The position numbers were made by a program, and so were the translations under genes. This document shows positions 1 to 22,299 of a stretch of 23,000 nucleotides of DNA, in pieces (position 1 is the stretch's first letter; every line of letters begins with the position of its first letter). Under the pieces are notes generated by a model. The model did no database searches, had not been told where the DNA came from, and saw only the letters and a list, made by a program, of their open reading frames with translations. The DNA comes from a virus: the IMG/VR virus record IMGVR_UViG_3300032291_002073, positions 1 to 23,000 of that record; one strand, given 5' to 3'.

Positions 1-964
1 ACAAAGAGAAATAAGAGCCTGCAATAACACTATCTACCACACTTGCCCCTAAAACATTAAACTGCCCGTTGACAAAATTCCTTTCTGAACTTGCCCCGTT
101 TAAAGTATTAGCGTGTCCAACAATAGAACTATAAAGGTTTACGTTGGTAATAGTATTCCCAAAGCCTATTGATTGGAATTGCAAAGATGATGGCGAACTT
201 GTAGACCTAAACCAACTTGTTCCACCAAAGGTAATTGCATCGCTGTTTGTATTCGCTATTGGTATATTTACAATACCATTGCCAGTAATAGAAAACGTTT
301 CCGAACTATCGGCTGCATTCCTTATTACTAAGGTCTTACTGCCTAATGTATCGGCTGCATTAACTAAGGTTAATCGTGTACCCCTTGCAGTTGAGCCGCC
401 TATTATTAAACCGTTGGTTGTGTCTAAATTTAAGATTGCGTTTTCTTGCAATACATTACCAGTTCCCTCAAACAATACCCTGCCAACCGTTCCCCCTGTT
501 ATAGGTGTTGTTCCGATTGCTAATGACGTAGGTGCTAAAGTATAATTAGCCCAAGCACCCGAATGGTATATCCTGTTTATTACAGTACCGGCGGTTGAAT
601 ATCCAGTACCCCCTACTGTTGCCGTGCCGTTCCTTACAAACACCACAAACCCTTTACCCTCTGCGGGTGTAGGGTCGGTAAAGGTAGCCGATGCAACAAC
701 GGTATAAACACCGTCTAATACAGCCGTTGTGTTACTGTTAATTACAATGCTTTCATTTTGCTTTAAATCTAAAGCCGTTTGTAAGTCAGTTTGTGAAGAT
801 AGCGTTCCCGTTATACTTCCCCAGGTTGCACCACCACCACCTACCGCTTGCCAACTTCCCTTTCCATTGGCATCAGAAGTCCACACATAACCATTAGCAG
901 CACCCCTGCGAAAAGTTACCCCCCCTAAAAAAAGTACATCGCTTGAAAACGGTTTATAATTCAT
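1..964 (-). CDS. Tail-fibre-like structural protein, cut by window edge
   Basis: The minus-strand frame starting ATG at 964 stays open to base 1, about 321 codons, so the C-terminus lies outside the window. The start MNYKPFSSDVLFLGG overlaps the end of the upstream connector gene by 11 bases, which is the usual spacing here. The residues are rich in Gly, Thr, Ser, Asn and Val. Short segments resemble phage fibre and trimeric beta-structured proteins: a Gly run near residues 42-45, then ITGTLSSQTDLQTALDLKQN at about 51-70, which is a typical fibre repeat-like motif. Two NAAD segments occur near residues 200-215. I infer a tail fibre or host-contact protein. An intramolecular chaperone domain (for example peptidase S74) could follow beyond the edge, but I cannot see it. 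Position after the connector is consistent with the end of the structural module. Confidence 0.72.
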   Translation of the reverse strand, partial: MNYKPFSSDVLFLGGVTFRRGAANGYVWTSDANGKGSWQAVGGGGATWGSITGTLSSQTDLQTALDLKQNESIVINSNTTAVLDGVYTVVASATFTDPTPAEGKGFVVFVRNGTATVGGTGYSTAGTVINRIYHSGAWANYTLAPTSLAIGTTPITGGTVGRVLFEGTGNVLQENAILNLDTTNGLIIGGSTARGTRLTLVNAADTLGSKTLVIRNAADSSETFSITGNGIVNIPIANTNSDAITFGGTSWFRSTSSPSSLQFQSIGFGNTITNVNLYSSIVGHANTLNGASSERNFVNGQFNVLGASVVDSVIAGSYFSL

Positions 965-1547
965 AGCAATTGCAGTTCAATCGGTTGCAATCTCGGCAAG
1001 TATAACGTAACCTATTATTTGAATTACCGCCAACACCAATAACAACAACACCGCCCTTTTTTCTTGAACTTACCGTAGGGTCATCACCCCATAATGGATA
1101 GTCAGTTGACTTGTTGCATAGGAACTCTTCGCACTCATTCCAATATGCCTTGCCTTGTTCTTTAGCGTTACTTATTGCAGCTTGTAGTGTTTTGGTATCT
1201 ACCCTATCCGAAACATCGCTATTGTTTTTAAAAACAACTCCAAAGCGTGTTACATTAACGTTTTGGTTAGCTAAAAATCGTGCATAGGCAAACATTACAA
1301 TAACAGCCTTTAGCCCGGTAAAAGAATAGGTAAGGTTGTTATAAGTGTAATCGCCACCATTTAATAATGCTTGGTAGTTGGCATCGGATTGGTTGTTAAT
1401 AAGGTCAGTATAAAACTGATTGCCCATTAACTCTTTAAGGTCAAATTGTTGCGCTTGGCTAATATAAGGGTTAAGCCTTTCTGTAACGTCTAAGTTACCC
1501 GTTAACTCCCTATAAGGCTCAAAATCATTAAACGTTATTAGTGCCAT
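954..1547 (-). CDS. Putative head-tail connector protein (DUF6712-like)
   Basis: This 197-residue protein follows the portal gene with a one-base TAATG-type overlap, a position typical for an adaptor that docks on the portal ring and joins head to tail. The N-terminus MALITFNDFEPYRELTGNLD and the mostly helical middle resemble the DUF6712 proteins of Bacteroidota phages and gp6-like connectors; this is recognition from memory, not a search. The C-terminus is odd: residues about 182-195 have four cysteines in a CxxCxxxxCxC pattern (CRDCNRLNCNC), which could bind a metal. The last codons overlap the start of the fibre gene. The function is inferred mainly from position. Confidence 0.65.
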   Translation of the reverse strand: MALITFNDFEPYRELTGNLDVTERLNPYISQAQQFDLKELMGNQFYTDLINNQSDANYQALLNGGDYTYNNLTYSFTGLKAVIVMFAYARFLANQNVNVTRFGVVFKNNSDVSDRVDTKTLQAAISNAKEQGKAYWNECEEFLCNKSTDYPLWGDDPTVSSRKKGGVVVIGVGGNSNNRLRYTCRDCNRLNCNCYEL

Positions 1548-2833
1548 TATTCTGTTATTGTTGTACCGTAAACCATAGCTTTAGCACTATTCTCATCAAC
1601 ACCAAAGATAACCCTAATCATATTTGTTTTTTGTTCAGGTGTTAATACTGGGTCAACTAAAATAGTGGTAATTGATTGCACCCCCCCAACTCCAATAACA
1701 GTAGCTAAATTTTGGCTATCTACGTTCTCTGAAGTAGCTGTTAAAGGAATAATAGAATAGTCATTAGTTGGGTTAATAGGCATATAATAAAATGCAAAAA
1801 TCTTTTTATAAACCTCTTCAATTATAAGCCTCTCATCGGCTGTTTTTTTGTTGTAGCTTTCAACCGCTTCTATCTCCTCCCCTGCCGTACCAAGTTTGCC
1901 CGATACCTCTTTACCTATTAATATGCTTGCCATTCCGTAATTCATACGGATATTGTCTTGAACTGAACTTTCAGTATATTCAAAAAGTTTGTCAGTATCT
2001 TGGTAGTCTACCTTAATTAGTTTAGGGTCTTGCGTTTCATCAGTACTGTCAACACGCATAATTTTTGAACTGTTATCAGCCCCTTGAAATGATGCCAACA
2101 CCCCGTTTAGGTCATCGGTACTATCACCGTCTTCAGTTACCGCCCTATTAATATAAATATGCGATGCCATAAAGTTGGTAGTAATATCACGGTACTTTTT
2201 AACCTTTATTTGTCCATCGGTAACACAATCTTCTAATACGGGGTCGGCTGTTGCCGTTGGGTATTCGTGTCCGTCAACAGAGAAATAAAGTATTTGACCT
2301 TTGTATTTGTCAAAACCACCCGCCTGAATAACCTCTTCTTCTACCTTTTCAGGGTTAAAAAAATTGATTATATCAATATTCTCTTTTTTAATTTGCTTTA
2401 ACCTGCGTTTATTCCAATCGTCATATACGGCAACAGCATAAGGAACGTAACTATCCTTTTCAACCGCTAACCTGCAATGCTCAAAAGGTATTGAATAAAC
2501 ATCGGTAATTTGATAGTTCGCATTGTAGTTAACGTGGAACGCAAAGCCCCTAAACATTGCTAAGTCGTTGGCTGTTTTGCGTAAAATAAAGTCATTAGTT
2601 TGACCTAATTGGTTAACCTTAGCCTTGTAAAAAGATTGGTCGGCAAAACCTTGTCCCGTTATAAACTTTGCATAGATTTCGTTACACCTAAATGCTGTTC
2701 CGCTACCCTTAATAATGTCCATTACCCGTTGCGGATAGGCATTATCAATGTCATAAGCCAATATCCCCTCTGTAGCTATACGTTTTACTGTTAGCCTTTG
2801 CGGTACATCAACAATGGAAGTTCTGTAAACCAT
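1547..2833 (-). CDS. Phage portal protein
   Basis: This 428-residue protein would form the dodecameric ring at the capsid vertex through which DNA is packaged and ejected. Its length, its mixed alpha/beta N-terminal half and a late segment with GKEVSGKLGTAGEEIEA (about residues 307-323) fit portal proteins of Bacteroidota phages. The segment lies in the part that normally lines the channel and clip. Next to it are a connector gene (downstream, one-base overlap) and a SAP-like gene (upstream, one-base overlap), so the three are probably translationally coupled. The odd point is order: in most tailed phages the portal gene directly follows the large terminase, but here it follows protease and capsid genes. 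Assignment is from pattern and context; a structure-based search would settle it. Confidence 0.68.
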   Translation of the reverse strand: MVYRTSIVDVPQRLTVKRIATEGILAYDIDNAYPQRVMDIIKGSGTAFRCNEIYAKFITGQGFADQSFYKAKVNQLGQTNDFILRKTANDLAMFRGFAFHVNYNANYQITDVYSIPFEHCRLAVEKDSYVPYAVAVYDDWNKRRLKQIKKENIDIINFFNPEKVEEEVIQAGGFDKYKGQILYFSVDGHEYPTATADPVLEDCVTDGQIKVKKYRDITTNFMASHIYINRAVTEDGDSTDDLNGVLASFQGADNSSKIMRVDSTDETQDPKLIKVDYQDTDKLFEYTESSVQDNIRMNYGMASILIGKEVSGKLGTAGEEIEAVESYNKKTADERLIIEEVYKKIFAFYYMPINPTNDYSIIPLTATSENVDSQNLATVIGVGGVQSITTILVDPVLTPEQKTNMIRVIFGVDENSAKAMVYGTTITE

Positions 2834-3330
2834 TATTCGCCTTTTTTGTCATCAGCTTCTAACGCCTCAATAAAAATTGCCTTGCTTGTGCCTGTAACAT
2901 CTAAACCACGATTAGCGCACTCTTCCTTTAATGCAGGTAATTTCATTTCAGCGTAGGCACTTTCTTTTTTATCTTCTACAACTGGGCTTTCTTTTAGCAA
3001 ATCTTCGTTGATAGTCTTAAACTTTTTGCGTAGTTCAGGGCGTGCTAATAGCATTTCTATACAAGCCGATTCAGGTAAATACTTCTCTGAATAAGTAACG
3101 CCTTTAAAGCTGATTAAACTGCCTGTTTTTAGAGTAAAATTTTTAGTTGATTGCATATCTTGTTCGTTTGATGGTAAAGATAAGTAATTTTTTAATTTAA
3201 AGTAATCACGGTAGAGGTTGCCTGGGCAACTGCCGCAAACTACACCCTTACCAAATGTTGATTTGAATAAAATACCAAACTCTTTTTGAGCCTGTGGATT
3301 ATACATGACCTCGTTAACTGTCCACTTCAT
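2833..3330 (-). CDS. Unknown structural-module protein with SAP-like C-terminus
   Basis: This 165-residue protein lies between the capsid operon terminator and the portal gene. Two regions stand out. Residues about 30-38 carry a CGSCPGN motif, a CxxC pair that could bind a metal. The last 40 residues, beginning near KLPALKEECANRGLDVTGTS, look like a SAP or HeH helix-extended loop-helix: the pattern lpaLkeec..rGLd.tGtKa.li is typical, and such domains often bind DNA. Phage proteins with this domain occur near portals and connectors. The middle contains charged linker sequence (about residues 112-128). I do not recognise the family as a whole. A head-completion or DNA-contacting role is an inference from the C-terminal pattern and position. 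Confidence 0.6.
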   Translation of the reverse strand: MKWTVNEVMYNPQAQKEFGILFKSTFGKGVVCGSCPGNLYRDYFKLKNYLSLPSNEQDMQSTKNFTLKTGSLISFKGVTYSEKYLPESACIEMLLARPELRKKFKTINEDLLKESPVVEDKKESAYAEMKLPALKEECANRGLDVTGTSKAIFIEALEADDKKGE

Positions 3331-3342
3331 AAAAATTAGTAT

Positions 3343-3371
3343 AAAAAAAGGGGCTTTTTATCGCCCCCTTT
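3343..3371 (-). terminator. Rho-independent terminator after the capsid genes
   Basis: Read on the minus strand, GGGGC (with three A before it) and GCCCC form a 5-bp GC stem, extendable by A-T pairs across one bulged G. The loop is GATAAAAA and a run of seven T follows directly. It lies in the 58-base gap after the structural gene at 3389-3964 and before the next minus gene, so it would end or reduce transcription between the capsid operon and the portal operon. I see no consensus promoter just downstream of it, so it may act as an attenuator. Confidence 0.7.
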
Positions 3372-3388
3372 CCTTTAGTTAAAAAATG

Positions 3389-3964
3389 TTATAGTAAGGC
3401 TTCAATTAATGCCAATGTTGTAGCATAATTGGTGTCAAATACGCTAAATGGTAAGTGTGGCTCTTTTACAAGTTCCGAACTGCCAAGTTGCAGTACATAG
3501 ATGCCGTCATTCTCCATTACGTTACGCACGCTTGTTAGCACTTCAAGACCGTTGGTTATACCATAAATCTCAAAAGCTGAATTGCCAGTAGCGGAACGGT
3601 TAGCATTTTCAACAATAGCACAAAGGTTTCCCGATTGTACCATTTTTTCAATTTGTGCTTTTGTTTCCGGTGTAATATCAAATGCTGCAAAACCTACATT
3701 GTGTTGGTAGCTATCAAAATACTGACCTTTTACAAGTTCAGCACTTGCTGTAATTGAGTTGTTACGCCCCTCTATTTTAAACAATGTTTGACCTGATGCT
3801 AATGTAATGCCATCAACAATCTTTTGTGGTGTTATACCTGCTGTGTCGTAGGTAAAATCAGCCCCGTCAAGGTTAAATAGATATAAGGTGTCTTTAGTCC
3901 CCGCAATAGGCGGGTTATCACAATCAATCAATATATCTGCGCTTATGCCTCCGCATTGTGCCAT
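3389..3964 (-). CDS. Phage structural protein, possibly tail tube or head decoration
   Basis: This 191-residue protein follows the major capsid gene after a 19-base gap and is followed by a terminator, so it is probably made in large amount. The sequence is beta-rich and without membrane segments or a signal peptide. Segments such as LYLFNLDGADFTYD (about 27-40), TLFKIEGRNNS (60-70) and the C-terminal YATTLALIEALL match a protein type I associate with Bacteroidota phage structural clusters. I cannot say whether it is the major tail (tube) protein or a capsid decoration protein. High-dose position beside the capsid fits both; no other tail tube candidate is obvious in the window, which slightly favours tail tube. 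Confidence 0.55.
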   Translation of the reverse strand: MAQCGGISADILIDCDNPPIAGTKDTLYLFNLDGADFTYDTAGITPQKIVDGITLASGQTLFKIEGRNNSITASAELVKGQYFDSYQHNVGFAAFDITPETKAQIEKMVQSGNLCAIVENANRSATGNSAFEIYGITNGLEVLTSVRNVMENDGIYVLQLGSSELVKEPHLPFSVFDTNYATTLALIEALL

Positions 3965-3983
3965 AATTCTTAGTTTTTAAAGG

Positions 3984-5063
3984 TTAATAAGCTACTTCTA
4001 CCAAGTAATCTTCCAATACTTTAGCATCAAGGTTGTAAGCGAATTTAGCAACGTATTTCTCGTTGTATTCGTCAAAGAATGCTTTAACTTCAGCAAGGTT
4101 GCCCTCTTCTTCAACACCTAAACCTAAGTTATCGGTAGTGGTAAGAATGGCACGGTGTGGGCGGTAATATTTAGTGCCGTTGTCTTGGTAAAGGTCAATC
4201 ATACGGTCAAAGAAATTAACACCAACAACCGGTATGCCGTTGTAAGATAGTGCGCTAAAACCGCCCTCAATGCGTACAAAAGAACTGTCAACACCTTGCA
4301 TCTCTAATTCGTATGCGTACTGGTCAAATACTGTTTGAGTAACAATAAAAATAAGGTTGTTACGATCACGCAAACGGAAGTCAGCCGATATTTTTAAAGT
4401 GTGTAGGGTTTTGGTAGCTATACGGTTAGTTAGGTCAGTTGCATCAAACGCTTGCAAGGCTTTTGTAGATTGTCCGTTTTTAGTTGCCAATGTGTCAACG
4501 TAACGTGCCGGGGTTGCTGTACCAATTGCAAAAAGTTGTTTCCAAAAACCGTCAATAGGGTTGAAGTAGTCAACATCTATACCGTTTGTAATAACACCGG
4601 CAGGGCTATCATTGTAGTTAGCTGCATCAGTATCACCAAACCAAGCAATACGCCAAGCTGCATCAACGGCAGCATCAGTTAAACGCTCTTCAACAAAGTT
4701 AGCAAAGTCAGTATCAAGGATGTTTGTTTTGTTAACACCATTTTTAGTAGCCCAAGCAAAGAATGTATCTTCTAAGTCAGTCCAGCAATCTTCAATACGG
4801 GCGGCTATGTACTTTGGAGTCCATACCTTTTCGCTAATATCAATAGATGCGGTGTCGGCAGTTGTTGAACAAGTTGTTTTTTCTTTGCCAAGCAAGCCTA
4901 ATTTACCAAGAAAAACAATCTGTTTGTTTGCCTTAATGCCGGTAAATACCTGGTGAAATTCGGTAATAGCAGGGCGTGTAAATAACGCCTCGTAGATAGC
5001 CTCTGAAAGTAGTTGTACTTCCCTACGGGTAAACGTATAATTGGTTGGGTTTAAAATTGCCAT
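3984..5063 (-). CDS. Major capsid protein (HK97-fold candidate)
   Basis: This 359-residue protein directly follows the ClpP-like protease/scaffold gene (18-base gap), the classic place for the major capsid protein. The N-terminal 30 residues are helical (TRREVQLLSEAIYEALFTRP) and could be a scaffold-like arm. The middle has aromatic and charged segments (WRIAWFGDTDAANYND at about 137-152), and the C-terminal third carries GFSALSYNGIPVVGVNFFD (about 265-283) and a DEYNEKYVAKFAYNLDAKV segment, similar in layout to the P-domain and A-domain of HK97-like capsids in Bacteroidota phages. Assignment rests on length, position and these general features. The A/T-rich gap before the start gives no clear ribosome binding site. 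Confidence 0.75.
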   Translation of the reverse strand: MAILNPTNYTFTRREVQLLSEAIYEALFTRPAITEFHQVFTGIKANKQIVFLGKLGLLGKEKTTCSTTADTASIDISEKVWTPKYIAARIEDCWTDLEDTFFAWATKNGVNKTNILDTDFANFVEERLTDAAVDAAWRIAWFGDTDAANYNDSPAGVITNGIDVDYFNPIDGFWKQLFAIGTATPARYVDTLATKNGQSTKALQAFDATDLTNRIATKTLHTLKISADFRLRDRNNLIFIVTQTVFDQYAYELEMQGVDSSFVRIEGGFSALSYNGIPVVGVNFFDRMIDLYQDNGTKYYRPHRAILTTTDNLGLGVEEEGNLAEVKAFFDEYNEKYVAKFAYNLDAKVLEDYLVEVAY

Positions 5064-5081
5064 TTCTTATCTTTTTATGGG

Positions 5082-5645
5082 TTAGGTTAATTGTTTTTTA
5101 ACAGGTTTGTATTCAGCTTTACGCTCTTTCATACCCTCAAAACGGTTGTCGTCTTTTTTGTTGTCTGTGTGGCGTGCCATGTTATCTTTTTGGCGTGCCT
5201 TTGGAACGTATGTAGATTTCACGTTGGCTTTAAGTGCCTTTACTTCTTCTTGCAGTGATTCAATAGTTTCAGCCGATTTTGTCAAAGCGTTTTCTACTTC
5301 TTTGTCTTCAGCTTCGTACTCTGCAACTTTAGCTTGCAGGGCTGTTACTTGTTCTTGTAGTTCAGCCATAGTGTATTCGCTTGGTGCGTACACTTCAGTA
5401 ATTTTACCGCCCTCTGTTACAATACGGAAACCTGCCAAATCTCCTGTTAGCGTGTGTTCTGCATCGGTAGGGGTTTCGCCTGTATTGTCTGCACCTACAT
5501 AAACCATATCCCCAACTTTAGGAACATCAGCTTCGGTTTCAATATACAGTTCAGTACCATTTTCTAAGGCACTATGCAAAGCCTTTGGCTCTGCTTCAAA
5601 CAAGGCTCTTACCTTGTCAAGTAATGATTTTTTTTCTGTGGTCAT
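5082..5645 (-). other. Possible internal start giving a separate scaffold protein
   Basis: Within the protease gene an in-frame ATG at 5645 begins MTTEKKSLLDKVRALF, exactly where the ClpP-like domain ends and the scaffold-like half begins. It is preceded by the A-rich stretch GTTGAAATAAAA, the type of leader that favours initiation in Bacteroidota. The product would be 187 residues. Lambda C/Nu3 is the known model for nested scaffold starts in protease genes. This is an inference from position and leader only. Confidence 0.3.
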
Positions 5646-6224
5646 TTTTATTTCAACTTTTCGTTTAGGTTGCAAATCAATTTTAGCATAAGCCTTAATC
5701 GGCTCTGCTATTGCGGTAATAAAACCAAGTTCTAATGCTTTGTTAGCGGTTAGGGTTGTTTCAACAGCCATTAGTTGGCGTAGTGTATCAACATCTTGCC
5801 CCGTTTTTTTAGCGTAGAAATCAGCTAATTTGGTTTCGTTTTGGGTAAGCATTTCTGCCACCTCTGTAAACTTAGCTGCATCGCCACCAGCTTCAGTCCA
5901 GGGATTGTGAATAAAGAACTCGCTGTTAGGAGTCATCAATCGGGTTTCGCCTGATAACGCTATAACGGTGGCTATACTGGCGCATAAACCCTCAATAATA
6001 GTTTCAACGGGTTTGCCTAACGACTTAATGTAATCATGGATAGCAAAGCCCTCGCTAACGCTACCGCCCCGTGAATGAATGTGTAAACGTATTGTATCAA
6101 ATTCACCTGCATTGGTTAATTGCTTTCTAATGCTATCCAAAGAAACAACACCAAACATATCAGCCATATCAGCCGCTACTGTATCTACTTCTCCGTAAGC
6201 GTATATTTCAGCTATTTTGCTCAT
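5082..6224 (-). CDS. ClpP-like prohead protease fused to scaffold-like coiled coil
   Basis: The protein, 380 residues from the start MSKIAEIYAYGEV, would cleave scaffold and capsid arms inside the prohead. I chose ATG 6224 because the family begins with this beta strand; a longer frame to 6275 adds a poor 17-residue tail and overlaps the divergent gene's start. The N-terminal ~180 residues are a ClpP/S14-type domain: HSRGGSVSEG (about 50-59), GLCASIATVIALSGE with the likely nucleophile Ser83, and FFIHNPW with likely catalytic His106; the acid residue is probably near KTGQDVD. The C-terminal half is charged, includes a coiled coil around 285-335 (AELQEQVTALQAKVAEYEAE) and ends in a basic tail, like a scaffold. 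The capsid gene follows. The protease-scaffold fusion is known in tailed phages. Confidence 0.82.
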   Translation of the reverse strand: MSKIAEIYAYGEVDTVAADMADMFGVVSLDSIRKQLTNAGEFDTIRLHIHSRGGSVSEGFAIHDYIKSLGKPVETIIEGLCASIATVIALSGETRLMTPNSEFFIHNPWTEAGGDAAKFTEVAEMLTQNETKLADFYAKKTGQDVDTLRQLMAVETTLTANKALELGFITAIAEPIKAYAKIDLQPKRKVEIKMTTEKKSLLDKVRALFEAEPKALHSALENGTELYIETEADVPKVGDMVYVGADNTGETPTDAEHTLTGDLAGFRIVTEGGKITEVYAPSEYTMAELQEQVTALQAKVAEYEAEDKEVENALTKSAETIESLQEEVKALKANVKSTYVPKARQKDNMARHTDNKKDDNRFEGMKERKAEYKPVKKQLT

Positions 6225-6246
6225 TGATACAAAATTGTTATTTTTG
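6216..6246 (+). promoter_or_regulatory. Bacteroidota-type promoter for the plus-strand gene
   Basis: TTTG (6216-6219), a 19-base spacer and TATTTTTG (6239-6246) match the published Bacteroidota -33/-7 form (TTTG or TTG, about 17-23 bases, TAnnTTTG). Transcription would begin near 6253, leaving about 17 bases before the ATG at 6270. The site overlaps the first codons of the divergent protease gene. It is the only consensus-like site I found directly before the only plus-strand gene, which strengthens it, but AT-rich sequence makes chance matches possible. Confidence 0.55.
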
Positions 6247-6269
6247 CTGAACACCATTACTACAAAAAA

Positions 6270-6779
6270 ATGCAAGTAGATATATTAGGGCTTGGAGAAA
6301 GCCTAAAGGAATACAAGCCAACGGGCAATTTAACCATTGGGGTAAATGACATAGGGACTTACTACCCTGCCGATGTGGTTATATGCGTTGACAACCTTTA
6401 TAGGTTTAAAGGGAAAAGAAAGAAAACACTATGCAGTTATCAACCAAAAGAATTTTGGTCGCATAGATTAGAGTTTAAACAGTTCCAACCGGGCTTTAAA
6501 GAATACCAAATTGGCGGCACTCATAGCCTTAAAAATATGGGTAAAAAAAATACGGTTGTGTTTGGGTTTACTTCCGTTTATGCTGCAATAACTTTAGCGT
6601 ATAACATATACGGGGCAACTGAAATAAATATATACGGGTGCGACCTTGTCAATCACCCAGTATTAGGTGAAAAGAATAGATTAAACAGTACCGTCAAACA
6701 CCTTTTTCAACTGTTTTTGTATTTAAAGCAAAAAGGCGTAACGGTTAATCTGTATTGCGGCTTGGCTAAACTTTTCTAA
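6270..6779 (+). CDS. DUF115/GT42-like protein, lone plus-strand gene
   Basis: This 169-residue protein is the only supported plus-strand gene. It starts at an ATG directly after seven A and is divergent from the protease gene. Its end overlaps the convergent methyltransferase gene by 14 bases. The N-terminus VDILGLGESLKEYK is Rossmann-like. IGVNDIGTYYPADVVICVDN (about 23-42) and TSVYAAITLAYNIYGATEIN (about 101-120), followed by YGCDL, resemble DUF115 and sialyltransferase-like (GT42) proteins, in which a GxGxSL motif and an asparagine/aspartate pair bind a nucleotide sugar. The shortness makes it at best a single-domain version. Together with the neighbouring glycosyltransferases it probably belongs to a sugar-modification cassette; substrate unknown. 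A hairpin-capable inverted repeat (TTAGGgCTT/AAGCCTAA) lies just inside the gene. Confidence 0.65.
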   Translation: MQVDILGLGESLKEYKPTGNLTIGVNDIGTYYPADVVICVDNLYRFKGKRKKTLCSYQPKEFWSHRLEFKQFQPGFKEYQIGGTHSLKNMGKKNTVVFGFTSVYAAITLAYNIYGATEINIYGCDLVNHPVLGEKNRLNSTVKHLFQLFLYLKQKGVTVNLYCGLAKLF

Positions 6780-16819: not shown

Positions 16820-17006
16820 TGGTTACTTTTTTAAGTTCTTTTAGCCTATCAATTGATGCCAATTGTTCTTTATGCGTACCACGTTCAATACGCAATATTT
16901 GAACGTCTACAAAATAATCAACATCTTTTATCACCCCGCAAGATAGTTTTTGTGGGCTTTTAAATTCCGTTGTTCTTGCCCATTCTATTAGGTCGGCTGT
17001 TTCCAT
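16809..17006 (-). CDS. Small unknown tail-module protein
   Basis: This 65-residue protein begins METADLIEWARTTEFKSPQK. It shares one base with the upstream gene stop (TAATG) and overlaps the next gene by 11 bases, so it is translated as part of the operon, which supports it being a real gene. A conserved-looking middle, GVIKDVDYFVDVQILRIERG, suggests a small beta protein. No family is recognised. A tail accessory role is only an inference from position. Confidence 0.62.
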   Translation of the reverse strand: METADLIEWARTTEFKSPQKLSCGVIKDVDYFVDVQILRIERGTHKEQLASIDRLKELKKVTNGS

Positions 17007-17955: not shown

Positions 17956-18705
17956 ATATCTTTTGTAGTTTTTCGGTGTAGTCGCTTACTTCTTTTTCGT
18001 ACCTTAATATAGTAAAGGCATCGGAATACTCCAGGTCTTGTACTTGTTCTGATGTCAAACCGTGCGCTTTCATAATTGTACGGATTTGGGGGTACGAGCC
18101 ATATTTTTTAAACCGTTCAACACCTGCTGCAACCTCTTCGGGCTTTGGCTTGCTGCCGAGATAGTCGGCTTCACGTTGGATGACTTTAGCAAGCCGCTCA
18201 AAAAAAAATCAATTAAGGGCTTCGCAGAGGTTATTGGGTAATCATTAAACCATTGCTCTAACTCATCAACTCTTTTATCGGAATAACTGCCATAGGCTTC
18301 AACACAAAAAGTTATTGCCAGTAGTCGTGCATAGCAATCGGGATTAACTTCTACACCTGATGTATTGGTAATGGCTAATTGCTGAAATGCTATCTTTTGC
18401 CCAAACTTTAAACCCTCAAACCCTGCCGGTATGTTTAATACCTTGTCTTTATAATCAACCGCTTCAGGTTTTTCAAACTTTGGCAATCGGCTTAACCAAC
18501 CTAAGTTAACACCAATGGTAAGGTGAAAGTTAGCTAAGTCCGCATTGTTAAGAGTATCAACATCAATACCTAACAAGCAAGCTGCCACCGTAACTGCATC
18601 GGCTGTATCAGGCAACTTGCGTAAGGCTGAATAGCTTTTGAGGCTTAACTCTTCCCAGTCTAATGGTAACTGATAATCTTTATTGTCAATCTTTAGCTTT
18701 AGCAT
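17942..18705 (-). CDS. Tail assembly chaperone, long form by -1 frameshift
   Basis: If ribosomes slip back one base on the T9 run (18208-18200), codons 1-168 of the short form continue into the -1 frame for 86 residues, ending with TGA at 17944-17942. The total is about 254 residues. The -1 extension is strongly protein-like: FFFERLAKVIQREADYLGSK, then PEEVAAGVERFKKYG, MKAHGLTSEQVQDLEYSD and DYTEKLQKIY. It fills the gap that the short form leaves before the next gene, overlapping that gene by 14 bases as is usual here. In this frame a TGA lies just before the T run, so only slippage can join the two parts. This copies the lambda G/GT logic, in which the fused form binds the tape measure. A homopolymer sequencing error is the main alternative. 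Confidence 0.6.
18070..18705 (-). CDS. Tail assembly chaperone candidate, unshifted short form
   Basis: This 211-residue form begins MLKLKIDNKDYQLPLDWEEL, a pattern (short strands, then P...W.eL....y..L) that I know from phage tail assembly chaperones. The first ~166 residues are compact and helical (for example AITFCVEAYGSYSDKRVDEL), while the 43 residues after the T run (LSGLLKSSNVKPTISAASQS onward) are low-complexity and look like an alternative-frame tail. The stop TGA overlaps an ATG of the -1 frame. The position far upstream of the tape measure is unusual for a chaperone, so the name is an inference from sequence pattern plus the frameshift. Confidence 0.62.
   Translation of the reverse strand: MLKLKIDNKDYQLPLDWEELSLKSYSALRKLPDTADAVTVAACLLGIDVDTLNNADLANFHLTIGVNLGWLSRLPKFEKPEAVDYKDKVLNIPAGFEGLKFGQKIAFQQLAITNTSGVEVNPDCYARLLAITFCVEAYGSYSDKRVDELEQWFNDYPITSAKPLIDFFLSGLLKSSNVKPTISAASQSPKRLQQVLNGLKNMARTPKSVQL
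18147..18208 (-). promoter_or_regulatory. Predicted programmed -1 ribosomal frameshift signal
   Basis: On the minus strand a run of nine T (18208-18200) gives the heptamer T TTT TTT in the zero frame (after GA in the codon GAT). After six bases of spacer (TT plus GAGC), GGCTTGCT (18195-18188) can pair perfectly with AGCAAGCC (18154-18147). Inside the loop GCCGA (18169-18165) pairs with TCGGC (18159-18155), a second stem that would stack directly beside the first. Slippery run, spacer and stem match the usual bacterial frameshift layout. Confidence 0.6.
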
Positions 18706-18734
18706 GTTGCAAATATAAAATATTTTAGTTAATA

Positions 18735-18989
18735 TTACCGCTTCATAGTGTTTGATTGGTTAGACTTTGCCCTGCGTACTGCGGGGCTTTGTCTTTCAAT
18801 GCACTTATCAGTTACTTGTATCAGGTGCTTTGTTCCGTTCAGTTCAAACCGTATTACGTTGGTTTGCTTATGCCTTTTGCACTTCTTAACCTCAACACCC
18901 CCTAAAGAATAGATTGATAAAATAAACCCTGCAATAGCCCGGTAAGCTAATGATTTACTGCTATACAGTTTATTGGTTTTCATATTCAT
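18735..18989 (-). CDS. Small basic hypothetical protein
   Basis: This 84-residue protein begins MNMKTNKLYSSKSLAYRAIA and is rich in Lys and Arg, ending TMKR. A short hydrophobic part (AIAGFILSIYSLGG, about 18-31) may be a weak membrane-associated helix or a buried core. It lies between terminase and the chaperone with gaps of 29 and 78 bases, larger than elsewhere. No family is recognised. The open frame is short but has its own ATG pair (MNM). It could be spurious, but the gap it fills supports it. Confidence 0.5.
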   Translation of the reverse strand: MNMKTNKLYSSKSLAYRAIAGFILSIYSLGGVEVKKCKRHKQTNVIRFELNGTKHLIQVTDKCIERQSPAVRRAKSNQSNTMKR

Positions 18990-19067
18990 ACCCGACCCGC
19001 TTTTGTAGGTTATTTGGTATTTGTCCTCGTTCTTGGTTATTATTATTCTTGCTGCTATTGTTTTTAT

Positions 19068-21029
19068 TTACCTACTTGAAACTAATTGTACTCTTTGCCT
19101 TGTTAGTGGCTTGCTGACTAAATGGTAGCAGCCGTAGCGCATCGCATCACAATTATGAACTAATACCCCGTTTGCAAAGTATTCGTGGCAATCTTCAACT
19201 TCTAAATCATATACTATTTCTTTCCAACTTTCGCCTACGCCTAAGTGCAGTAGCTTTGCAGTTTTGATGGCAGTATTTTGATATGCCTCTGTTTCTTGTT
19301 TGGTATTCTTTTCCGCATACTTCGCATGATAAAGTTTTAAATGGAACATTCTCCCAAAGTTTAGTAGCGTGTTGCCTATGCCATTCAATACCGTCTTTTG
19401 TTTTATGCCACTCTTTTGAGGCTTCAATACCTTTTGCGTGAAATTCTTTAGCCCAGTCAGGATTATTGATAAACTTTTGCTTACCATGCTCTGAAAGATG
19501 TTTTTTAGCTTCGATAAGTTTAAGATTATCAATTCTATTATCCCAAGAATTACCGTTAACATGGTGAACATGATACCCTTTTGGTCGTTTGCCATTGTAG
19601 TATTCCCAAACTTTGTGGTGCATATGGTGTTTATGCTGCATAAAGTATTTTCTGCCCGGATAGAGTTTATATCTTTTTCCGTTAAAGGTTTGATATGGCA
19701 AATTGTCTGCCCCTGTTTTAATTGTGAAATCTGTGTCCATTCTGTATCGGTGCTGATTAAATGATTGTTAGTAGCACACAAATATACAGAAATCGTACCG
19801 CATTGCATCAAATACTTATTAACTTGTTTCTCTCCGTTATTAAATACGTTTAATACTTTTTTATAACCCTTTCTTGTTAATACCATATCACCAACTTTAA
19901 TTTCTGATATAGGCTTATTGCCTTTGTCAGTAAATATCAATGTAGATGCAATAAAGCAAGCGTCGTCTTTAGCCTTTACAGGCTCTTCTAATACGGTATC
20001 AGTAGCGTTATGACGTTTCCATTTGTAGTTCTGTATCTCTTTAACCAGGTTCTCACCATTGACAAATAGTTTTTGGCTTTTTACCTTATCAATCCCGTGC
20101 TTTACTTCTTTGGTTGCCGCCCTAATGTTGTAACCGGCTTTGCGAATGTCGGCTATTATTTCAGGTCTTGCACCATCGGCATATATTTCGGCAAGTTTAT
20201 CAACTACGGCTGCCAATGCGTTTATCAGTTCGGGTGTTGTTAGGTGCGATTGGTAAAGCAACTCACGGGCATATATCTCACCATCACGGTAAGAACACTT
20301 AACAAGTGCCGTGGGGTGATTGTAGCCAAAGTCTAAGCCATACATTACCCTGCAACCATCAGGCTCTTCGTGGTAATATTCGTAACGTGGGTATATTAAG
20401 TCCTTGCTACTGGCACGTTCACCCATTCCGTAAACCTTAAACCAATCGGGGTCGGCTTCACGGGCTGCCTCAATTTCGGCAACTATTTCTTTAGGTAGAA
20501 ACGGATTGTCTAAGTATGTAGACTTAATCAGCGTGCAATCCTCACGGGTTAGTATCTTATCGTATATCCAATGGTAAAGGTCAGACGGGTTAAAGTCCAT
20601 TAGTATCTGCCCGGCGGTACGGCTCGTTACTTGCTTAAAATCTTCATAGGTACAATAGTTGGCTTCATTAAACCAAAATATATCCTGTTTACGCCCGTGC
20701 AACTTTAGCGGGTCATCTAAGCCAATAAATTGTATTTCGCTGCCGCTATCCTTTAGGGTGTAGGTTAGACTGCTAAGGTGTACATTAAAGCGGTTGGCTA
20801 TCCCTGCCTGACTGATAACGTCTATAAAATCTTTGTATGCTGTATCTTTTAGATTAGTTAAAGCCGACCTTGCAATGGTTATCTTTAAACCTTTGGTGTT
20901 GATTGCTTTATACAATATGTACTGAATGATAGAATAGGTTTTGCTTGACCTTGCTCCGCCCTGATGTACTATGAGTCGGGTGTTGGCTGCTAAGGTTTGT
21001 TCAAAGACTATTGTGCTATTTAGTTCCAT
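19068..21029 (-). CDS. terL: Terminase large subunit with inserted intein
   Basis: The precursor has 653 residues; splicing would remove 269 and leave about 384. The enzyme is the ATPase/nuclease that packages DNA and cuts the concatemer. The ATPase part has the Walker A-like VHQGGARSSKTYSI (about 21-34) and the Walker B region DIFWFNEANY (116-125). The nuclease part has YGLDFGYNHPTALV (230-243) with likely Asp232, EIYADGARPEIIADIRKAGY (281-300), and the conserved DDA/DAMRYG site. The intein interrupts exactly there: KAKDDA precedes it and CDAMRYG follows. The start overlaps the small terminase by 14 bases. The spliced length is shorter than many large terminases (about 420-550) but within a reasonable range. 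Confidence 0.9.
   Translation of the reverse strand: MELNSTIVFEQTLAANTRLIVHQGGARSSKTYSIIQYILYKAINTKGLKITIARSALTNLKDTAYKDFIDVISQAGIANRFNVHLSSLTYTLKDSGSEIQFIGLDDPLKLHGRKQDIFWFNEANYCTYEDFKQVTSRTAGQILMDFNPSDLYHWIYDKILTREDCTLIKSTYLDNPFLPKEIVAEIEAAREADPDWFKVYGMGERASSKDLIYPRYEYYHEEPDGCRVMYGLDFGYNHPTALVKCSYRDGEIYARELLYQSHLTTPELINALAAVVDKLAEIYADGARPEIIADIRKAGYNIRAATKEVKHGIDKVKSQKLFVNGENLVKEIQNYKWKRHNATDTVLEEPVKAKDDACFIASTLIFTDKGNKPISEIKVGDMVLTRKGYKKVLNVFNNGEKQVNKYLMQCGTISVYLCATNNHLISTDTEWTQISQLKQGQTICHIKPLTEKDINSIRAENTLCSINTICTTKFGNTTMANDQKGIMFTMLTVILGIIELIILNLSKLKNIFQSMVSKSLSIILTGLKNFTQKVLKPQKSGIKQKTVLNGIGNTLLNFGRMFHLKLYHAKYAEKNTKQETEAYQNTAIKTAKLLHLGVGESWKEIVYDLEVEDCHEYFANGVLVHNCDAMRYGCYHLVSKPLTRQRVQLVSSR
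19207..19740 (-). CDS. HNH homing endonuclease encoded out of frame within the intein
   Basis: This 177-residue frame starts at ATG 19740 and is shifted by two bases against the terminase/intein frame. It has the HNH_3-like core GYHVHHVNGNSWDNRIDNLK (about 54-73), preceded by KVWEYYNGKRPK and followed by IEAKKHLSEHGKQ. The C-terminal end CEVCGKEYQTRNRGISKYCH resembles the zinc-finger-like tail common in phage HNH homing enzymes, followed by a basic RRRRK. An in-frame TAA at 19770-19768 closes the frame upstream, so it must start independently. It begins just after the N-terminal splicing blocks and ends a few codons into the C-terminal block, so it fills the space between them. Activity would spread the intein to intein-free terminase genes. 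Confidence 0.85.
   Translation of the reverse strand: MDTDFTIKTGADNLPYQTFNGKRYKLYPGRKYFMQHKHHMHHKVWEYYNGKRPKGYHVHHVNGNSWDNRIDNLKLIEAKKHLSEHGKQKFINNPDWAKEFHAKGIEASKEWHKTKDGIEWHRQHATKLWENVPFKTLSCEVCGKEYQTRNRGISKYCHQNCKATALRRRRKLERNSI
19779..19812 (-). promoter_or_regulatory. Promoter-like site before the nested HNH gene
   Basis: On the minus strand TTTG (19812-19809), a 22-base spacer and TATATTTG (19786-19779) fit the flavobacterial TTG-N17-23-TAnnTTTG form. A transcript would start near 19772 and reach the HNH ATG at 19740 after about 32 bases. The site lies inside the intein coding region, so it may be a chance match in AT-rich sequence; the agreement of position, spacing and downstream ORF is the reason to list it. 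Confidence 0.4.
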
Positions 21030-21318
21030 CTGGGCGAACTATGCGAATGGTAAGTTCGTTGCTTTCGTTTCCGTCTTTATCGGTAAAGCTGACGTTTTGC
21101 AGCTTAGGTAATATGTAAGGCAACACTTCGCCACATGCTTTAACGTAGCTTAAACCTTTTAGCGTGTTCATTTCTTTAAATAGCTTATCAACCATATCGG
21201 TATTGAAACCATCGGTTAATGCTTCTCTTAGTTGCCTCTTAATAGGGTTGGTTGCCCCTTTAGGTTTGCCGGGGTTTCCCTTTTTAAATGCGGTGCTTGG
21301 TGCTTTCCTTGTTCCCAT
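21016..21318 (-). CDS. terS: Putative terminase small subunit
   Basis: This 100-residue protein directly precedes the large terminase and overlaps it by 14 bases. The start, TAFKKGNPGKPKGATNPIKR (about 9-28), matches the DUF5681-like basic motif (FkpGnpGkPKG) found in many phage small-terminase-type proteins. The middle is helical (ALTDGFNTDMVDKLFKEMNT) and the C-terminus ends TIRIVRPDGTK, a strand that may contact the large subunit. DNA recognition for packaging is the expected role. The identification rests on motif, size and position. Confidence 0.7.
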   Translation of the reverse strand: MGTRKAPSTAFKKGNPGKPKGATNPIKRQLREALTDGFNTDMVDKLFKEMNTLKGLSYVKACGEVLPYILPKLQNVSFTDKDGNESNELTIRIVRPDGTK

Positions 21319-21327
21319 CGTATCGGG

Positions 21328-21340
21328 TCGTTATTAACGA
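21328..21340. repeat. 13-base perfect palindrome before the small terminase
   Basis: TCGTTATTAACGA is a perfect palindrome with a single central base, lying in the short gap just before the small terminase start. It could be an operator. A -7-like TAACTTTG (21357-21350, minus strand) lies next to it but has no matching -33 element, so the regulatory role is uncertain. Confidence 0.3.
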
Positions 21341-21343
21341 TAT

Positions 21344-21997
21344 TTATACCAAAGTTAACATTTCTTTTCTAATTCCTTTGCCCGGTATGTGAACGGGCTT
21401 GGTAAAGTCGTGTGTTTCAGGCTCAAAGTTAGCCCAATCTTTTAATATATCTTCAATTCGGTCTTTATAATTTCGGTTTGCGTTGCTATGGGTTAACTTT
21501 TCACGGTAGCTTTCTACACTATCCCTGACGTGGCTGTAGTGGTGGGCTTCAATCTCTTCTCTTTTGAAGATGTGAATGTTCTTTGCTGGGATTGCTCGTG
21601 TAGGGTCTACTCTTATATCCCAAGCGTTTAGTTTTAAGTTTCCGATTGTTTGAATAAATGGTATGTAATATGTTTCGGGTGTGGCAAACTTTACCGTTTT
21701 ATACTTATAGTAGGTTTGCATTTGGCAAGCGGTGGCTTGTAGGTTGTTGCGGTTGATGAAATATATAGCTCTATCCACGTCTTCAGGCTTGTAAACCTCA
21801 TCGCAATCCATCAGCAGTACATGGGTGCAACCAATAAGCCTATCAATACCTTTTTGCCTTTTTGCCATTTCGCCTTTGTGGTCTTCATACTTACCGTAGA
21901 CTAATTCTAATTGGTGTGCAAATGGTTGAATGCCGGCAATGCTTTCTTTTAGGTTTTCAAGTCCGTCAAATATGTTGTATACTACTCCTAATTTCAT
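21344..21997 (-). CDS. GT2-like glycosyltransferase in the packaging module
   Basis: This 217-residue protein begins MKLGVVYNIFDGLENLKESI, a GT-A type first strand, and carries THVLLMDCDEVYKPEDVDRA (about 58-77), where D64 and D66 form a DxD-like acid pair. Later EIEAHHYSHVRDSVESYREK (about 148-167) has the His and Arg pattern seen at the ends of GT2-like enzymes that act on small sugars. It overlaps the HNH gene upstream by four bases (ATGA) and sits 25 bases before the small terminase. A glycosyltransferase in this position is unusual. Substrate and target are unknown. Confidence 0.7.
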   Translation of the reverse strand: MKLGVVYNIFDGLENLKESIAGIQPFAHQLELVYGKYEDHKGEMAKRQKGIDRLIGCTHVLLMDCDEVYKPEDVDRAIYFINRNNLQATACQMQTYYKYKTVKFATPETYYIPFIQTIGNLKLNAWDIRVDPTRAIPAKNIHIFKREEIEAHHYSHVRDSVESYREKLTHSNANRNYKDRIEDILKDWANFEPETHDFTKPVHIPGKGIRKEMLTLV

Positions 21998-22299
21998 TTT
22001 CTGTTGTAATGTACTGTTAGTATTCTTTCTTTTACCGTTTCAAAATCTAAGTGCATAGTTGCGGCGTGTTTTAAAACAAGGTACTCAAAATCCCCCTGGT
22101 TATCTCCGTACTTATCGTGGCACTCCCGGCACATAGCCATAAGGTTTTCAATAAAGTCCATTACCTTACTGCCACCCATTCCTTTAGGTTTTATATGGTT
22201 TATGTCTACGGCTTGCCTACCACATTTACACTCGCACTCTATCCAGCTATTAATATCGTAGCCAAAATAGTCAAAGTAAATTTTAGTGTGCGGTTGCAT
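21994..22299 (-). CDS. HNH endonuclease of the packaging module
   Basis: This 101-residue protein has a compact HNH fold: CECKCGRQAVDINHIKPKGM (about 23-42), with a CxC/CxxC-type metal pair before HNH, then ENLMAMCRECHDKYGD (about 51-66) with a second CxxC. Small HNH proteins next to terminase genes are known in many long-tailed phages and aid the terminase in DNA cleavage and packaging (HK97 gp74 is a model). It is unrelated in sequence layout to the HNH frame nested in the intein. Its stop overlaps the glycosyltransferase start by four bases. Confidence 0.82.
   Translation of the reverse strand: MQPHTKIYFDYFGYDINSWIECECKCGRQAVDINHIKPKGMGGSKVMDFIENLMAMCRECHDKYGDNQGDFEYLVLKHAATMHLDFETVKERILTVHYNRK

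Follow-up and report, generated by a model that had tools for sequence, protein, structure and literature searches.

How can an intein be tied to a homing endonuclease that is not encoded in its own reading frame? Inteins are the textbook case of an endonuclease fused within a splicing protein. In the 23,000-nucleotide stretch of viral DNA analysed here (positions 1 to 23,000 of IMG/VR record IMGVR_UViG_3300032291_002073; hereafter the window), the terminase gene terL contains an intein whose middle also codes, in a second frame, for an HNH protein. We consider it very probable that this is a mobile terL intein whose homing endonuclease has a gene of its own, superimposed on the central part of the intein in another frame. 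Pointing to this at the level of sequence are two overlapping open reading frames (ORFs), more than 100 loci in two relative frames, codon-position signatures, empty sites, joint transfer of intein and HNH gene, and free-standing relatives adjacent to terL.

The terL ORF has no internal stop, and the intein occupies TerL residues 358–626 (coordinates in Table 1). Cysteine at position 1, a block B TxxH motif, a C-terminal His-Asn pair and a +1 cysteine are all in place, and the insertion point falls within the TerL nuclease motif (DDA^CDAMRYG, with ^ marking the junction). In isolation, the intein matches Pfam Intein_splicing with an expectation value (E) of 1.6e-8 and a score of 34.9, slightly below the 35.8 cut-off. 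AlphaFold2 models both ends confidently (predicted local distance difference test, pLDDT, ~94), and Foldseek matches the model to the gp41-1 intein (6riz, E 2e-6) plus other inteins, pointing to a Hint fold. The intervening stretch over the HNH gene, here termed the shadow, is modelled at block means of ~29–51, with 113 of the 269 intein residues below 50, and is probably a disordered linker between the Hint halves. Comparison of terminases with and without the intein, a check that the initial annotation of this DNA had put forward, gives an exact empty site: contigs L090–L092 (93–94% nucleotide identity) carry an intein-less terL reading KDDA^MDAMRYG, so the insertion is in frame and falls exactly between codons. 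By these features the insert is an intein in TerL, and would be expected to splice.

The HNH gene starts 1,289 nucleotides downstream of the TerL start and is hence in another frame. Its product carries HVHHVNGNSWDN plus cysteines C139, C142, C157 and C161, and matches Pfam HNH_3 (E 4e-13) and PHROG 15471 (E 1e-19); the HNH motif, zinc-type cysteine pairs and profile together mark it as a putative HNH_3 homing endonuclease. The AlphaFold2 model is confident (mean pLDDT 90.9), with I-HmuI (PDB 1u3e) as the best, if weak, match (profile E 5e-4; Foldseek probability 0.96, E 0.019). Spanning from just past block B to the beginning of the last intein block, the gene lies at the usual site of an intein endonuclease domain, in an unusual frame. 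The initial annotation had placed the splicing parts in one frame at both ends and, in a different frame, a 177-residue HNH protein with a zinc-type tail; the Pfam matches, the invariant residues and cysteines and the predicted Hint fold bear out both.

The layout is not peculiar to the window. Across viral contigs, phage records and genomes we found 110 distinct nested out-of-frame HNH genes, 14 free-standing relatives and none in frame. The host frame is HNH +1 in 86 nested genes, as in the window, and HNH +2 in 24, and the two classes differ in the look of their inteins, with C-terminal ends HEYFANG-LVHN and TFVLGNG-VSHN, respectively. An HNH-blind scan for an intein C-terminal motif, with a pattern specific to the first class, returned the out-of-frame layout at 70 of 70 loci. 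An endonuclease in the same frame as the intein, the canonical arrangement, was found neither in the window nor in any of the 110 nested relatives or 70 motif loci. The hosts are terminases: Intein_splicing is recognized in 51 of 52 representatives and terminase models in most, and Cys1, the Thr and His of TxxH and the last Asn form invariant columns across the 52. The TxxH pattern is present in all 110 hosts, in which the +1 residue is Cys (104) or Ser (4), the pattern having missed two.

Nested HNH proteins diverge from that of the window to ~26% identity, with isolates and metagenomes independently concordant. The layout occurs in Rhodobacteraceae phage LS06-2018-MD07, Acinetobacter phage Highwayman and Tetrasphaera phage TJE1, in whose records terL alone is annotated across the HNH gene, and in four bacterial-assembly contigs (Bacteroides, Patescibacteria, Prevotellaceae and Acidobacteria). 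The latter came from a scan with A6; the first genome-contig scans gave no usable stretch with A1 and no relative with P0002. Two candidates were rejected: L245, which at first looked like an in-frame HNH relative, encodes a tandem-HNH protein without an intein, and L007, a weak intein match, turned out to be a long intein of the usual in-frame kind in a different gene. The initial annotation had named metagenomic phages as a place to seek the layout, and indels at about 19741–19767 and 19210 as the sign of an HNH domain truly in frame with its intein; the layout was found at more than 100 loci, and no such indels were seen.

Among these loci, one viral contig (L226:1327–4752) has a 1,142-residue TerL ORF with a LAGLIDADG match at residues 291–343 in addition to an out-of-frame-HNH intein; this terL probably holds two inteins of unlike endonuclease design. 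In L008, near position 4994, TerL directly after the first intein reads CDEICLTAGSQVLTSEG, in which another intein seems to begin five residues further along.

Stop codons separate nested from free-standing genes. Expected counts were obtained by synonymous recoding of the HNH gene with phage codon usage (2,000 recodings for the window). The window has 0 stops in the intein frame against 7.8 expected, none of the 2,000 recodings being stop-free, and 25 in the third frame against 18.0 expected. Both frames are open in three contigs at 95–97% identity and in more than 100 diverged ones. Host frames of the nested relatives have 0 stops versus ~5.2 (+1 class) or ~13.4 (+2 class) expected, with normal numbers in the third frame, and free-standing relatives are at chance in both frames (6.8 versus 6.3 expected; 20.0 versus 17.3). 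Thus 110 of 110 nested genes are free of host-frame stops, and 14 of 14 free-standing genes have them at chance rate. Across all loci, the +1 frame of these AT-rich HNH genes is stop-poor (~5 expected, versus ~20–21 in +2), a possible reason for the excess of +1 layouts.

Openness is not the same as sequence conservation. Within the overlap, HNH codon position 3 evolves fastest; in the flanking N- and C-intein halves it is position 3 of the host frame. Because of these rates and the AlphaFold2 confidence, the HNH frame seems to hold the sequence information and the intein frame above it to need only openness. The claim in the initial annotation that both frames are kept thus stands (0 host-frame stops, 110 of 110 nested genes), with one correction: in the shadow (pLDDT <50), openness looks to be what is kept, rather than sequence.

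Mobility is indicated by several comparisons. The occupied locus L002 and the empty locus L092 share metagenome number 3300035190, and the +1 residue is Met in the empty allele and Cys in the occupied one. Between loci L053 and L133, divergence is 28.5% for TerL but 1.9% for both the N-intein and the HNH; between L043 and L112, TerL identity is 26%, with 75% for the intein and 70% for the HNH. Intein and HNH thus appear to travel together between diverged terminases. As a separate observation, L025, L026 and L038 have N-inteins diverged by 0–0.5%, and the HNH of L038 differs by 11–13% from the other two; the HNH stretch may have been swapped on its own.

Free-standing relatives lie directly 3' of an intein-less terL in most loci, and every one examined in context adjoins a terminase gene; no intein halves, as would mark a split intein, were found near the 14 loci. 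In the HNH tree, well-supported branches show four or more switches between the free and the nested state (the bootstrap being not fully settled), and one free-standing clade sits inside a nested clade (98/95), with stops restored in the equivalent of the host frame.

The start of the HNH frame argues for its separate expression. Almost every nested gene retains this ATG, preceded in most cases by a stop of the same frame 0–9 codons away (no codon between the two in 6 cases, one codon in 23). A conserved ATG so close behind a stop points to initiation at that ATG and away from frameshifting, and the homologous ATG also serves as the start in free-standing genes. In L103, GGAGG lies 7 nucleotides upstream of the HNH ATG. 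In Brevundimonas phage Poludnitsa (L107 2968–2971), the start of an unannotated free-standing HNH gene and the TerL stop share the tetranucleotide ATGA, which suggests translational coupling. The conserved ATG, upstream stop and codon-position rates fit the earlier proposal that the endonuclease would be a free protein.

We envisage the following cycle. In the precursor translated from terL, the two Hint halves would assemble despite the meaningless shadow linker between them, and excision of the intein by splicing would rebuild the nuclease-site sequence DDA-CDAMRYG of TerL. Internal initiation at the HNH ATG would yield free HNH protein. This would cleave intein-less terL at the DDA^xDA-RY site or close to it, and repair templated by the intein-bearing allele would copy intein and HNH gene in one step. 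The intein frame would stay stop-free because terL is essential, and the HNH frame would keep its sequence because mobility needs the nuclease. Several points weigh against this account. A strong Shine-Dalgarno sequence is present in one nested gene only (≥4 nucleotides in 5 of 86 of the +1 class); sought as a general HNH start signal, it was not found, which leaves initiation unexplained for most nested HNH genes. Divergence from L090–L092 is not reduced beside the insertion site; the copy in the window thus shows no visible co-conversion tract. At fourfold sites the +1 class is less diverged, a difference confounded by recent intein transfer, and constraint on the shadow peptide beyond openness is at most a possibility. 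Splicing, internal-ATG initiation and HNH translation, the cleavage site and homing are steps that we infer from sequence.

Could the nested HNH instead be a DNA-packaging partner of the terminase, merely housed by the intein? Terminase-adjacent HNH proteins can act in packaging, the HNH protein gp74 of HK97 having a role in cos cleavage (PMC10448857), and the free-standing relatives examined in context all have terminase neighbours. We nonetheless find this unlikely: the sister contigs carry terL without the intein, no HNH match occurs in the 28-kb (possibly incomplete) record of L090, so that the HNH looks dispensable, and jumps of intein plus HNH between TerLs 26–77% identical, like the interchange of states on the tree, point to a mobile element. 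If the HNH were instead reached by programmed frameshifting out of terL, the product would be a TerL–IntN–HNH fusion in place of a free protein. The frames do overlap and strong ribosome-binding sites for the HNH frame are few, yet the stop preceding the conserved ATG leaves almost no window for a slip, the +1 and +2 classes would require opposite slips, and the homologous ATG is the start in free-standing relatives; we hold this very unlikely.

Next to no probability attaches to an open frame owed to chance or recency, or to a sequencing error concealing an HNH truly in frame. The stop-poor +1 frame of AT-rich HNH genes (~5 versus ~21 in +2) would help the former, but the nested genes are stop-free in two different frames, free-standing relatives sit at chance, and isolates agree with metagenomes; the nested and free stop counts and the 70 of 70 motif loci refute both ideas. 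Nor is a self-splicing intron carrying the HNH gene more than barely conceivable. Group I introns commonly carry such genes, yet this insert is in frame and stop-free, with all intein splicing residues and a predicted Hint fold, and an Rfam search of window positions 18000–22000 returned no match even at E 1, counting against a group I intron.

An endonuclease gene overlapping a mobile intein, the reading we prefer, also bears on split inteins. In Vibrio phage 1.238.A (L247 2083–3374; NC_055735.1), terL is split, with an unannotated related HNH gene out of frame between the pieces, which are a TerL ORF ending in an N-intein and a separately annotated 'hint' ORF comprising a C-intein and the TerL tail. 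The intein halves share one frame, which is interrupted by many stops where it crosses the HNH gene. The two ORFs of the host gene thus flank an endonuclease gene, which is the arrangement of a fractured gene. It suggests a route from the overlapping to the split form, from a single case in which direction is not shown; if true, contiguous inteins would become split when the shadow frame breaks, as in this phage. Tentatively, at somewhat less than an even chance, overlapping-gene inteins would form a distinct, widespread architecture and an evolutionary crossroads, at which standalone terL-targeting HNH genes enter inteins via a stop-poor frame, persist as long as the need to splice holds the shadow open, and then may leave or, on breakage of that frame, yield split inteins.

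Table 1 Features of the terL intein and nested HNH gene in the window.
Feature	Coordinates	Strand	Basis
terL precursor ORF (N-extein, intein and short C-extein), 653 aa	19068..21029	(-)	Open ORF; Pfam Terminase_3, E 4e-31
N-extein: ATPase and most of TerL nuclease domain, ending ...AKDDA	19959..21029	(-)	Empty-site comparison with L090–L092
Intein, 269 aa, Cys1 to His268-Asn269	19152..19958	(-)	Pfam Intein_splicing; conserved catalytic residues; Foldseek gp41-1
N-terminal splicing half, residues 1–91	19686..19958	(-)	AlphaFold2 block means ~87–97 over residues 1–90
Block B TxxH (T63..H66)	19761..19772	(-)	T63 and H66 invariant in alignment A4
Shadow stretch of intein frame, residues 92–228, over HNH gene	19275..19685	(-)	pLDDT; zero stops in relatives
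C-terminal splicing half, residues 229–269, ...HEYFANGVLVHN	19152..19274	(-)	AlphaFold2 block means ~89–95; host-frame position 3 fastest
C-extein, first residue the +1 Cys: CDAMRYGCYHLVSKPLTRQRVQLVSSR	19071..19151	(-)	+1 is Met in intein-less L090–L092
Out-of-frame nested HNH_3 (I-HmuI-like) endonuclease gene, 177 aa	19207..19740	(-)	Host frame is HNH frame +1; Pfam HNH_3
HNH catalytic motif HVHHVNGNSWDNRIDNL	19522..19572	(-)	H59, H60 and N68 invariant in alignment A1
CxxC...CxxxC zinc-type motif of HNH protein (C139, C142, C157, C161)	19258..19326	(-)	4/4 Cys invariant in A1
HNH start ATG, spanning intein codons for E-W (GA-ATG-G)	19738..19740	(-)	ATG conservation; W74 ≥90% conserved

Elsewhere in the window, positions 954–6275(-) encode a portal protein (PHROG 11226, E 6e-70) and a head maturation protease (PHROG 94, E 1e-54), on the same strand as terL and ~13–18 kb away. 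A 62-residue stretch between listed ORFs (16821–17006(-)) matches Pfam DUF6965 (E 8e-9).

An intein of this kind would uncouple splicing and endonuclease as proteins and lock them together in DNA: the endonuclease would be free, yet disruption of the host frame within that gene would inactivate the essential terL. This raises the questions of how an internal gene is translated within terL, how a random linker of 140 residues is tolerated and whether split inteins stem from failure of the shadow. It follows that annotation overlooks many phage endonucleases, as in the LS06-2018-MD07, Highwayman and TJE1 records.

Among published designs, the closest parallel comes from actinophage methylase genes: the out-of-frame HNH insertion called the ShiLan domain, which is without intein motifs and thought to be retained in the protein (PMC11855218). 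Both are mobile inserts in phage genes with a mosaic distribution, in which a stop-free host frame hides a zinc-motif HNH with its own start, and the relative frame is that of our main (+1) class. They differ in start codon (GTG there, ATG here) and in the host product: ShiLan has neither intein motifs nor fold, whereas the intein motifs and predicted Hint fold in an essential gene speak against retention here. Our phage searches at E 1e-5 returned no actinophage methylase record. The initial annotation knew of no well-established example of the design, and this appears to hold for inteins, not for out-of-frame HNH insertions, which are published for phage methylases (PMC11855218). Literature searches returned no account of an out-of-frame endonuclease in an intein. 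On overlapping frames, the ShiLan paper (PMC11855218) refers to a preprint on actinophage inteins of 'non-canonical architecture' (10.1101/2025.01.02.630785) that lies outside this comparison, so earlier actinophage cases are possible. With that caveat, out-of-frame HNH insertion is already known and its placement in an intein appears new.

I-HmuI and free-standing phage HNH endonucleases share the HNH motif and fold; I-HmuI is encoded by a group I intron, and the present gene is nested out of frame in an intein. Collaborative homing is known for endonucleases beside split terL genes (PMC10448857). In fractured genes, as relayed in later papers, the two parts of a split intein flank an endonuclease gene (Dassa et al. 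2009, via PMC3229294 and PMC8228797). That placement is common to both systems, and the nearest solved intein here, gp41-1, belongs to theirs; in the window and its relatives, however, the host gene is unsplit and the intein frame continuous. Canonical inteins (PI-SceI, VMA inteins) have their endonuclease in frame (PMC8966425). They share with the terL intein a Hint domain, insertion in a conserved host motif and endonuclease sequence between blocks B and F, but their endonuclease is part of the intein polypeptide, whereas here it would be a separate gene overlapping a meaningless linker.
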